DNA from: Alloascoidea africana | Lineage: Eukaryota > Ascomycota > Alloascoideomycetes > Alloascoideales > Alloascoideaceae | DNA length: 64,000 nt | Assembly (NCBI GenBank): GCA_030581615.1 | Contig: JAKTTT010000032.1 | Span: forward strand, 180,196 to 244,195 | Direction: 5' to 3' | Shown here: piece after piece, positions 56,569 through 63,874 of the stretch | How the letters are laid out: every line of letters begins with the position of its first letter | How positions within the stretch are numbered: position 1 is the first letter of the stretch | Position numbers and translations under genes: made by a program | The notes under the pieces: generated by a model | The model's database searches: none | The model's input: the letters and a program-made list of their open reading frames with translations, nothing else | What the model was told of the DNA's origin: nothing

Positions 56569-58321
56569 ACCTATTTCCCAATTTTTTTTATTTTCCCTGG
56601 AATCTAATAACGCATTGTCTCCAAGTTTGTTGATACAGGAGCGAGTTGGATAAGCATTCTGAATCGACTAGCTGGCCGTTGGTTATTGGATTAACTAGCG
56701 CAGGTGGCACCATTAAGTTCTGATTTTTTTCAAAAAGTTCGATCTAGCTTTAAGGTGCCTAGATGATTAGCCGATACCGTTGACGGTTCTAAAAGAGACG
56801 TGCATGGCAAAACTTCACCTGGTTTTCTGGAACTAATTTTAATCCTAATCAGCATTGTACGGCATACAACGCCCTTCTCCTTTTCTGTGAACTACGACTG
56901 AGTATAAGGGGTATGAAATGAAAAGAGAACAGGCAGGAGAGCCACTCCAAGCAGCTGTTGGGTTTCATAGTTTGACTAATGCCTTCTTCTACTGCATATA
57001 CCAGAAAGACGCATTTGCATTGCCAAGCATAAAAGCTGTGTCTAATCTGGTTTCCTCCGGTTGCGTAGAATATCTGCCTAGTCAACAAATGAGCTTCAAG
57101 GTTCTATGCTTTCTGTAGTCGATGGTTCACTAAGGTCGCTGAATAATACAATACGAAGCAAGTAATCAATGGACCTCCTGGACTGTTTCCCAGCATCGGA
57201 TGGCTAGGAGAGGAACCAAAAATGAAGACTTAGAATCAATTCAGGAGAAATTTTATTAAAACAGCCCAACGAACGCCCCGGAACTTCTTTTGAAGTCCTT
57301 AGGGCTAGATCCTCAAATTCAAGCTTACAAGAACAAAGGTTTGCACAAGTTATAGATCTAGCAATACCGCGATGATCATTTTACAGATAGAATATTTTAC
57401 GGAACTTTCGATTTGGGAAAAGCACAAAGTTAAAACTATTCAAAGGAGCTGCCTTTCCGCTCGAAAAACAACTCACACGAAGTTGAAGAGGAGAAAGGCA
57501 GAAATGGTAGAAGTTAACAGGGTTTGAAGTACGGACGGTTCTGATTATAGCAGGAGAATATGGGTAGCTAAATAGCCTTCAGCTTTTAAACTAGTGTCTG
57601 GGGAGCATAGATCTGTTTTCACTGCGTGTTCTCACAGGAAACCCGTTGGTAATCGAGCTTTTCCAATTGGGAGGATACAGTTCCTGCGAAAAGAAATCTA
57701 AAAGATTTCTTTGTTAGTGCGATGGCAGAGTGTTAGATACAGGTGACTTTGAAGTTGTTACGCACAATGCCTTGATGAACTTTGTGCGCCTAATTATTGG
57801 CTTGCAATTATCGGCTATGAGTGATTTTCAGTAGATTGTGTAGCGAATACTTCTTGTGTGTTTTGAATCTCCGATGGCAAACTGATTTGTTAAAATACGA
57901 TGTTTTAAACACTACACTCACTAATCGCTTACTTCTGATAGAGATTGTTTCCTCGGAATTTTATTATTCACCTTTGACATTAAACGAGAAAATGTGAAAT
58001 TTGTTAGGTCCAGAAGAAGCTAGGGTCAGTGATTCACACACAAGGCTGCTGAATTGCTACATAATAGGGATCTAACTACTTAAATAGCTATAGATTGAGC
58101 TTTCTTGGAGTGGATATCACCCGAGACCTAACAATACTGTCCTTCCACTAATCAGCTATCTCTTTCTGCTAAAATTATCTTTTTAGGTTTAAATTCGTAT
58201 AGTCTGTTGACCTTTTAACGCTTCCAATATTGAGACATCTTTCTATTTGGCTTTGGGCATTACTAATCTACATTGTTGGTCAATTACTCTCAAATTACAA
58301 GCCTAGATGTAACGTTTCTCG

Positions 58322-58603
58322 TCTTGCATCACATTCTCCTGATCAGCATTCATCTTTTTATTCGTTTTTCTGCTTTTTTGACTTCTGAGACTCATTGTTT
58401 TCACTTGATTGCGTCAGAGATGGTTTATCTTCAGTCTCGTTGTATATGCGCAAGGTATCAGCTTCCATTATCCCCTGTCTTTCCCGATTGCGTCTAGGCT
58501 CGAGTGAATTGTCTTCATGGATAACCTCACAGCTGAAATATCGTCCATAATGCTCATAAAGACGGGTATGAAGCGCTTTGATGAGGATAGTCTAGTAATG
58601 TCA
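58322..58603 (-). repeat. Left arm of 282-bp inverted repeat
   Basis: The reverse complement of 58840-59121, with only about seven or eight differences seen by eye, most within 40 bp of the inner end. Read on the minus strand it carries an open frame at 58591-58358 that matches the one in the right arm (ALHTRLYEHYGRYFSCEV ...). Several differences inside that frame are silent or conservative (ATT/ATC, GTC/ATC, AAG/AAA). Confidence 0.92.
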
Positions 58604-58839
58604 GTAACGTAACTCATATAGTCGTTAATGATATGCTTGTAGTGCAAAGGCAACAGATGAATGATGTAAAGGAATAAGACACACATTCAATTATAAGATA
58701 TCATAAGATTGTACATGCTCAAAGGTAAACAGACTACACAAACACAAACTTGAATGAAGGAGATCAAGAAATCCATAAAAAAAATTGAATTGAGTTTGAG
58801 CATTAATTTTTTACACCACTACCTTTGAATTTTAGCCCT

Positions 58840-59121
58840 TGATACTACTAGACTATTCTCGTCAAGGCGCTTCATACCCGTCTTTATGAGCATTATGGAC
58901 GATATTTCAGCTGTGAGGTTATCCATGAAGACAATTCACTCGAGCCTAGACGCAATCGGGAAAGACAGGGGATAATGGAAGCTGATACCTTGCGCATATA
59001 CAACGAGACTGAAGATAAACCATCTCTGACGCAATCAAGTGAAAACAATGAGTCTCAGAAGTCAAAAAAGCAGAAAAACGAATAAAAAGATGAATGCTGA
59101 TCAGGAGAATGTGTTGCAAGA
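58840..59121 (+). repeat. Right arm of 282-bp inverted repeat
   Basis: Pairs with 58322-58603 across a 236-bp unique spacer (58604-58839). A 77-codon open frame at 58852-59085 lies almost wholly within the arm. It begins right after a TAG that sits at the inner repeat edge, and ends in a Ser/Lys/Glu-rich tail (KSKKQKNE, stop). It looks like the 3' part of a protein gene copied twice head-to-head. I do not recognise the protein. Confidence 0.92.
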
Positions 59122-59454: not shown

Positions 59455-59564
59455 TGTAAGAGATGCTGAAGAAAAGGACAGAAAGAAGGAGATTAAAAGC
59501 CTGATTACCTTTGTAATAACATGAATCATGTTAACACTTCGGTTTGCACCTAGCAGTGAAGTAC
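59455..59564 (-). repeat. Dispersed repeat, family 2, copy X
   Basis: On the minus strand it reads TACTTC..CTAGGTGCAAACCGAAG ... TTTTCTTCAGCATCTCTTACA, matching 61361-61462 on the plus strand in several blocks with small indels between. No termini or coding content recognised. Confidence 0.65.
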
Positions 59565-59716
59565 ACAAAGCAAGAATGAAATGAGCAAAACAATCAAAAG
59601 TGATTGAGATAATTGATGTTGAATTAGTTTAGAAAATATACAAGAAGCCTATACCTCCCTGAGTTGGAGCACAAGCAATTCACCAGTTTTCAATAAAACA
59701 TTTTATCGTTACATCG

Positions 59717-59737
59717 TCTCTCTCTCTCTCTCACCAA
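59717..59737 (+). repeat. (TC)n microsatellite
   Basis: About ten TC/CT units in a row followed by further pyrimidine-rich sequence. A simple repeat. Confidence 0.7.
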
Positions 59738-60646
59738 TTTTTGTCTCCTACTCCTCACCTCGCTCTAGATGAAGTAATATTTTGCAAGATGAGTTCCTGG
59801 AGGGATTCTCTTACTCAAGGAGAACAGGGCTCAAATGAGCGGAAACCTCGAGAAAACTTAAAAGGAACAAGAAGAAAGTGTATTGAGCATCAATTGATTG
59901 GTTACTAAGACTCACGGAGAAAGCCTCTTCAAATAGAGCTTAGAAACTACTAGAAACTATATAAGCAACTAAAGGATTATTGATATAACCGCTTGTAGTT
60001 ACTGAATGTAAACTAAGACTAAATGAGAGTAACTAAGAGAGAAGGTTTAGGAGAGTCATTTCTCTTACATATTTCTGTGAAGGTTCCTTCACGAAACTTC
60101 AATGGTTCACTCTTGGAACCCTAGTGCAACTACTATGACCCTTGCCAGCCAGCTTGCACAGACTTCGTCAACTTATGATTACTATTCAGTTATACACTCG
60201 AGTCTCCCGACTTGGAGTTGTGAAAACTGATGGCGATAAACTTGATTCGTAGTATTTAGTATTGACTTAGATGATTAGGAATAGCCGCTGAAGGCAGAAA
60301 ACTATATAAAGACCTTTTGTAGCTAGTTATATAGGACAAGCAATACGAATCAGAAAAAATAATCAAAAGCTTTCCACGACCATTAACATTGTAAGCCTCT
60401 TTGCCCAAAGCTCATCCGTTCCCGACTCCTCTTTTGATCTCTTTCTCCCTTATCCCATTTTCGAAGGTGTCTTAGGATGACCTCAAAATTTCTATAAGAA
60501 CATTACCCAAGTCTAGCTTTTTTTACCTTTCTTTGATCTTCTTAATTAACTTTTTGTGTTCTTTTCTTGCCCTTTTGTCCTCTTTTCCTTTAGAGAGACC
60601 AGGCTCTTTAAATAGTGCTTCCAAAATATCTAAATTAACTATACAT

Positions 60647-60823
60647 TGTTATAATGAGATGACTCATCACACACGAAGACTGTCTTACCACATTTGGTAT
60701 ATTTGTAGTTCTGTCTATATAAGAAGAGCCTTTCTCTCATTTCTAATAAATCAAGCTTTATACATACTATTTTCACTGACCAAACTCCTAACAACTAGAT
60801 TCTGTCATCCAGCGACTATAACA
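60647..60823 (+). mobile_element. Solo LTR (family 1) with perfect 5-bp target-site duplication
   Basis: 177 bp, starting TGTTATAATGAGATG and ending GACTATAACA, that is TG...CA with short inverted ends TGTTAT/ATAACA. It is flanked on both sides by TACAT (60642-60646 and 60824-60828), a 5-bp target-site duplication. A TATATAAG motif lies inside and may be the LTR promoter. No internal element follows. The small open frames inside are not genes. Confidence 0.88.
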
Positions 60824-61008
60824 TACATTATCCTAAATATACTTAAAGCAACATCGAAACTCTTCTTACCGAATACTAATGTCTTGCTACTAAAAACGCT
60901 ACTATGGTGCAGGCTCTCTTTCTAACAAACACTTCGTGCCACATGATTGCATATTCTGAAGTAGCATCAAACCCAGAGGATTTGGTTCAGTAGGTTTTCT
61001 TGCAATTT

Positions 61009-61027
61009 TGTTACAGATCGTCTTCTG
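61009..61027 (+). mobile_element. Probable LTR 5' end, family 3 (degraded)
   Basis: TGTTACAGATCGTCTTCTG is identical over 19 bp to the sequence at 63875-63893, with looser similarity for about 40 bp beyond (GTGAGTA/GTGAATA; ACTCTA). It begins TGTTA as an LTR would. The far end could not be set. Confidence 0.5.
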
Positions 61028-61360
61028 TAGAGAAGTGAGTATATGGACTCTAGAAAGAGGTTTTTTTATTGATGTTTATACTCCATCACAGGGAGACACA
61101 AGCTTCTTATATAGTCCCTAAACTAGTTCTAAATCAATTATGACAATCCTTCTGGTTGCTTGTGAACTTCGTTGTTCCTTTGTGTGTTTAAATGATCTTG
61201 GTTCTCGTTGTCACCAGTAACCAAGGAAAAAATTGACCAGCCATTATGAGTCCTGTGCTATACACGAACGTCGCATGTTAGAATATAGGACTATAATCTA
61301 AAAGATGTTAAGAAAGAAGAAAAAGAAATGATCTTAGATGTACTTTGATTTTCCTTTATA

Positions 61361-61462
61361 TACTTCAATTCTAGGTGCAAACCGAAGCGTTAATATGACG
61401 CATCCACTAACAAGGTAACCAGCCTTTGTGTTCTTTTTACCTTTTCTTCAGCATCTCTTACA
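61361..61462 (+). repeat. Dispersed repeat, family 2, copy Y
   Basis: Shares CTAGGTGCAAACCGAAG, AAGGTAA(C/T)CAG and TTTTCTTCAGCATCTCTTACA with copy X at 59455-59564, in opposite orientation. About 2 kb separates the copies. Confidence 0.65.
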
Positions 61463-61813: not shown

Positions 61814-61887
61814 GGTTCGATGGTCTAGTTGGTTATGGCATCTGCTTAACACGCAGAACGTCCCCAGTTCGATCCTGGGTCGAATCA
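61814..61887 (+). tRNA. tRNA-Val (anticodon AAC)
   Basis: A 74-nt cloverleaf without intron. The acceptor stem GGTTCGA pairs with TCGAATC, discriminator A. A-box TGGTCTAGTTGG; anticodon arm TCTGC-TTAACAC-GCAGA with anticodon AAC; B-box GTTCGATCC. A T5 run begins at 61890, a Pol III terminator. An antisense open frame over this locus is only a mirror of the tRNA. Confidence 0.97.
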
Positions 61888-63765: not shown

Positions 63766-63767
63766 GA

Positions 63768-63861
63768 AGCCCTACGGGGGGCTCGAACCCCCAACCTTGT
63801 GATGACTTTTATCTCTGAAAGAATTAAGAGTCACACGCTCTACCGATTGAGCTAGCAAGGC
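63768..63861 (-). tRNA. tRNA-Lys (anticodon CTT) with 21-nt intron
   Basis: Exons 63861-63825 (37 nt) and 63803-63768 (36 nt) give a 73-nt tRNA. The acceptor stem GCCTTGC pairs with GTAGGGC (with G-T pairs), discriminator T. The D-arm is GCTC-AATCGGTA-GAGC. Anticodon stem TGTGA/TCACA with loop CTCTTAA, so CTT decodes Lys AAG. B-box GGTTCGAGCC. The intron (63824-63804) starts one base after the anticodon, the canonical 37/38 site, and contains AAAAG able to pair with the anticodon region. Confidence 0.95.
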
Positions 63862-63874
63862 CAATTTTTGGATC

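Follow-up and report, generated by a model that had tools for sequence, protein, structure and literature searches.

The 64-kb window analysed here is a stretch of the Alloascoidea africana genome that ends where its contig, C32, ends, and it contains a long inverted repeat 4.9 kb from that contig end. The two arms, at 58322-58603 (left, minus strand) and 58840-59121 (right, plus strand), are 282 nt each, with 276 of 282 positions identical, and flank a 236-nt spacer at 58604-58839 (minus strand); they are 98% complementary and lie exactly where the initial annotation had placed them. This is the sole ungapped inverted repeat of at least 60 bp found in the window with 12-base seeds, and 9-base seeds add two nearby pairs that are weaker, 60 and 76 nt long. 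The scan that detected the repeat, applied identically to Markov sequence (20 x 64 kb), returned no inverted repeat at E ≤ 1e-6. Folded as one RNA strand, the repeat has a predicted energy of -566.9 kcal/mol, against a mean of -182.5 for 20 shuffles, in keeping with the earlier suggestion that a transcript would form a hairpin of about 280 bp. Five of the six arm mismatches are transitions in the innermost 27 bp and the sixth is a transversion 8 bp from the outer end; the 247-bp run without mismatch between the inner and outer mismatches has a probability of 1.5e-5 under random placement of six mismatches. Such a pattern is the trace that conversion between the arms, or recent partial re-copying, would be expected to leave.

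Each arm carries the same 77-codon open frame, at 58852-59085 (plus strand) in the right arm and 58358-58591 (minus strand) in the left. As first described, the frames begin after a stop at the inner repeat edge. Two silent changes and one conservative change separate them. The frame does not open with a start codon, and ATG first occurs at codon 42. An open stretch of 77 codons was reached in 296 of 2000 shuffles, which makes it ordinary for the local composition. The apparent once-coding status of the arm rests on comparison with a relative on contig C19 and not on the length of the frame.

That relative was found by searching the genome (23,180,953 bases in 138 contigs). With very common words skipped, arm DNA had no copy outside the locus at E ≤ 0.001 in the 23.2-Mb genome, and arm plus spacer DNA had no match outside it at E ≤ 10. 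The arm peptide had a single other genomic match, at C19:185581-185751, with 40% identity over 58 residues (E 3.7e-6). This C19 locus (L015) holds two decayed copies arranged tail-to-tail, with arms of about 500 bp that are 58.5% identical (E 3e-30); the related sequence is inverted at both loci that hold it. Window positions 58388-58784, comprising left arm and spacer, align to the C19 locus with 59% identity over 423 columns, and against the C19 pair this left unit reaches scores of 64 and 45, the best of 1450 control segments scoring 29. The alignment of the right arm with the left unit ends at 282 bp, and that of the right arm with C19 is confined to the arm. Because the left unit aligns to C19 together with its spacer and the right arm aligns only within its 282 bp, the spacer, which resembles sequence lying upstream of the minus copy on C19, appears to be the upstream part of the left copy. 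The left arm and spacer would then be the older unit, an upstream and a coding part reading leftwards, and the right arm an inverted copy of its coding part without the upstream part. The head-to-head duplication of the 3' part of a gene that had been proposed here is borne out for the coding part of the gene relic.

The coding ancestry of the arm is read from four copies at two loci, whose longest gap-free block is 97 bp. In that block, which pairs the window with the C19 minus copy, 9/32, 6/32 and 23/33 of first, second and third codon positions in the frame of the initial annotation are mismatched. The first block shared with the C19 plus copy (72 bp) gives 16/24, 4/24 and 6/24, which in another frame is a third-position excess. 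The second (48 bp) gives 6, 5 and 8 of 16 each, with no clear bias. When the C19 copies are compared with each other, blocks with 9, 1 and 2 mismatches of 12 each and with 8, 4 and 18 of 23, 23 and 24 show the same kind of excess; their upstream blocks are unbiased (for example 12, 18 and 12 in 82 bp). Permutation gave 5e-5, 0.0005, 0.0013 and 0.00035 for the four biased blocks, which were chosen after the counts were known. It is the C-terminal half of the right-arm frame that matches C19 with an excess at third positions. The third-position excess in the two longest window-C19 blocks argues that the arm descends from a protein gene, and the copies seem to have diverged while they were working protein genes, or while they were renewed from such genes. 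The conserved frame changes partway, alike in both window arms and within a stretch over which the arms are identical; the gene was therefore most likely broken before the right arm was copied, in inverted orientation, from the left. The C19 plus copy runs into stops. The C19 minus copy retains an 80-aa ATG frame but was probably broken as well, to judge from the change of its frame relative to the plus copy.

An intact parent was sought with arm DNA, arm plus spacer DNA, the arm peptide and the 80-aa and 43-aa frames of C19, and these searches returned only the places on C32 and C19. A hairpin working against its parent gene would have a parent nearly identical to the arm; the sole protein relative is 40% identical, and at about 59% identity in DNA it is too different for siRNA pairing. 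With no close parent or silenceable target found, the suggestion that the hairpin silences its parent gene is unsupported. Pfam and PDB searches for the protein family of the relic gave nothing above noise; we would guess at a short coiled-coil product that may have belonged to a mobile element.

Other repeated sequences lie close by. Positions 58182-58314 (plus strand) may be what is left of another, older copy of the spacer in inverted orientation, the two lying tail-to-tail with 63% identity over 133 columns; its score was equalled by 3 of 3000 control segments from a pool that included the related locus L015, and we grade this palindrome as weak because scans of control sequence yield alignments of similar score. 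Beside the inverted repeat, at 58002-58133, lies a dispersed repeat of about 130 bp with at least 39 other places in the genome at 79-89% identity (40 of 56 candidates were scored), whose ends look by eye like the short inverted repeats of a MITE. On the other side, an older inverted-repeat element with 23-bp perfect ends occupies 59455-61462, and its modules are scattered over many contigs in both orientations. Two tRNA genes were noted toward the contig end: a tRNA-Val at 61814-61887, predicted by ARAGORN and not listed by Rfam at gathering score, and a second at 63766-63862, near the contig end, found by both programs.

The window repeat is one of a recurring class of palindromes in this genome. 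The scan for others covered 50 of 59 loci (174,694 bases), the remaining nine overlapping the window locus or L015, and inverted repeats at E ≤ 1e-6 were found in 17 of the 50, a biased sample in which 36 loci had been fetched by dispersed repeats and two for their palindromic look. At E ≤ 1e-9 an inverted repeat was present in 7 of 29 loci fetched by the ~130-bp repeat. Among arbitrary 10-kb pieces one of six held a palindrome, at C3:303268-303625 (L061 3268-3625; 80% identity), of which no further copy was returned, and the 10 kb adjoining the window (L003) held none. Markov controls gave 0 matches in 20 x 64 kb and in 40 x 20 kb, and a looser scan gave two weak matches in 100 x 10 kb at E ≤ 1e-6; among reversed, non-complemented controls, two of eight loci and one of eight window pieces gave matches at E ≤ 1e-6, of up to 64 bits. 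Scans at strict E values missed the C19 palindrome, which a looser scan found in the 3.2-kb L015 and not in the joined 20-kb piece (E ≤ 1e-6), so that the BLAST scan recovers old palindromes unevenly and these counts are not a census. Recurring long palindromes have arms of about 180 bp to 1 kb with 75-96% identity; long palindromes lie at 109-895 of L008, 42-977 of L011, 1009-1502 of L034, 931-3077 of L046, 941-1458 of L050, 543-1456 of L058 and 369-885 of L059. Across the genome, arm identities range from 59 to 97%.

Some of these palindromes contain recognisable coding sequence. Ten open frames in or beside them were searched against Pfam; matches at E ≤ 0.1 were obtained for five, of which three passed a curated cut-off: a Ty3-type capsid in L046, present in both arms, a reverse-transcriptase RNase H in L007 and a PIF1-type helicase in L045. 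The open frames of L050, L024, L058, L034 and L033 had no Pfam match at E ≤ 0.1. When the arm differences of 17 palindromes were sorted by codon phase, L046 (8, 23, 6; 440 bp) and L007 (3, 1, 13; 76 bp) stood out besides C19, with permutation values of 0.00045 and 0.00025 for these two, the only ones put to that test; most of the others showed no clear bias. Identity between arms was compared with identity to relatives at six loci in three groups. Arms were clearly closer to each other on C59 (91% versus 68-87%) and C22 (95% versus 74-82%), and those of the window were 99.6% identical in this comparison, versus 53-58% to their relatives. The C19 arms were only marginally closer (59.5% versus 53-58%), and those on C103 and C87 were no closer to each other than to relatives.

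RNAi in budding yeast was reportedly described by Drinnenberg in 2009. The genome analysed here contains one Argonaute, with a Piwi domain at C28:100635 (E 2.3e-76) and KpAGO as its best solved relative (E 2.9e-101); of its 1068-residue open frame 853 residues were examined, and these include PAZ and linker domains. There are seven RNase III domain matches. Two proteins (L051 and L052) combine a strong RNase III domain with two dsRNA-binding-motif (dsrm) stretches and RNase_3_N; L053 and L057 have the same layout with a weak RNase III match, L056 joins a Vhr1 domain to a weak RNase III match, and L054 and L055 we take, from their sequences, to be mitochondrial ribosomal relatives. The four RNase III family proteins that each have two dsRNA-binding-motif stretches, two of them matching RNase III only weakly, are encoded at C2:519556, C35:145028, C6:123890 and C97:40960. 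A pair of dsRNA-binding domains is characteristic of Dcr1, as opposed to Rnt1. Among solved chains, those named "RNase III" or "Ribonuclease 3" score above K. polysporus Dcr1 against L051. The noncanonical Dicer of budding yeasts derives from a duplicated RNase III gene, according to the available part of one source (PMC5499181). RNA-dependent RNA polymerase (PF05183) had no match in the genome, but control genomes were likewise without a match, so that its absence is not established. Judged by sequence, this yeast has an Argonaute as well as RNase III proteins laid out like the Dicer/Rnt1 proteins of budding yeasts, and the RNAi-type genes on which the initial annotation had made dicing depend are present. 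With such genes a hairpin transcript could be diced.

We place at roughly 0.6 the probability that a gene relic duplicated in inverted orientation makes up the locus, with arms that are homogenised or recent, in a yeast whose RNAi genes could dice it if it is transcribed. Under this reading the left arm and spacer would be a copy, already decayed, of a small protein-coding gene, and partial inverted duplication of it would have produced the right arm; the arms would then have been held nearly identical by gene conversion, or copied recently; we infer this direction and mechanism of copying, gene conversion included. If transcribed, the repeat would fold into a hairpin of 282 bp, and a Dicer-like RNase III could process it into siRNAs for Argonaute. 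The palindromic siRNA loci of budding yeasts are long inverted repeats able to form hairpins, in genomes with an Argonaute and a Dicer-type RNase III, and are further marked by transcription across both arms and by 22-23-nt siRNAs that depend on Dicer; the window repeat has the hairpin-forming structure and the genome encodes proteins of these kinds. It is a candidate for the type of palindromic siRNA locus described in Naumovozyma castellii, and by analogy with those loci and with the long inverted repeats of Trypanosoma brucei it may well be diced if transcribed.

Against the gene-relic reading, a relic without a target gives no reason for the likeness of the arms, and a selected hairpin would. 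In the foremost alternative, which we consider rather doubtful, the repeat is a selected siRNA-producing palindromic locus, its siRNAs functioning against an element that is absent, or not always present, in the genome, and selection renewing the repeat. The presence of Argonaute and Dicer-like genes, the inversion of related sequence at both its loci and the retrotransposon pieces in some other palindromes all agree with such a role, as does the prominence of palindromic loci in N. castellii, which in wild type account for 74.1% of those 22-23-nt reads that map to siRNA-producing loci, by the available text of that report (PMC7528652). However, no target was found for the arm, arm identities of 59-97% look like unmaintained decay at many loci, and the siRNAs of the two first-studied yeasts mostly match transposable and subtelomeric Y' elements, as far as the available part of the source goes (PMC5499181). 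A broader version, in which palindromes assembled from fragments of transposons and decayed genes form a genome-wide store that yields hairpin siRNAs and is selected through RNAi, repeats being renewed at the same loci (here a fresh 98% repeat over an older, decayed one), seems to us unlikely. That the repeat is a copy of a foldback or long-terminal-inverted-repeat transposon, as the initial annotation had allowed, is more improbable still. Such elements and MITEs share its inverted-repeat architecture, and dispersed palindromic families occur in the genome, with one, at 59455-61462, directly adjacent; but a transposon should be present in several dispersed copies and the arm DNA is confined to a single locus, no direct duplication is visible by eye at the exact repeat edges (which could be eroded), and the C19 relative is arranged oppositely, tail-to-tail. 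An assembly or sequencing artefact such as a chimeric inverted read, to which near-identical arms and a contig end 4.9 kb away might point, is very improbable given the 236-bp spacer, the six mismatches clustered near the arm ends and the other genomic inverted repeats whose arms are 59-92% identical, a divergence that no read artefact would produce.

The gene relic with its inverted copy resembles the palindromic siRNA loci of N. castellii, as these are described in the available part of the report, in its long inverted repeat and predicted hairpin transcript and in the Argonaute and noncanonical Dicer-type RNase III of the genome; siRNAs were measured there, whereas those of the present locus are putative (PMC7528652). 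The long inverted repeats of Trypanosoma brucei likewise have near-identical long arms, and all seven identified gave small RNAs by the available text; they span 422-10,011 bp with small RNAs measured, against the predicted hairpin and 282-bp arms here (PMC3447711). Features of this genome are that the arm carries a recognisable gene relic and that some palindromes carry pieces of transposons. To our knowledge, the origin and purpose of the palindromic loci of N. castellii are unsettled. With palindromes of differing age, some of which contain recognisable coding pieces of transposons, and with an Argonaute and several Dicer-like genes, a genome of this kind would allow the study of how such loci arise, of whether conversion or selection maintains the likeness of their arms, and of what palindromic loci target.
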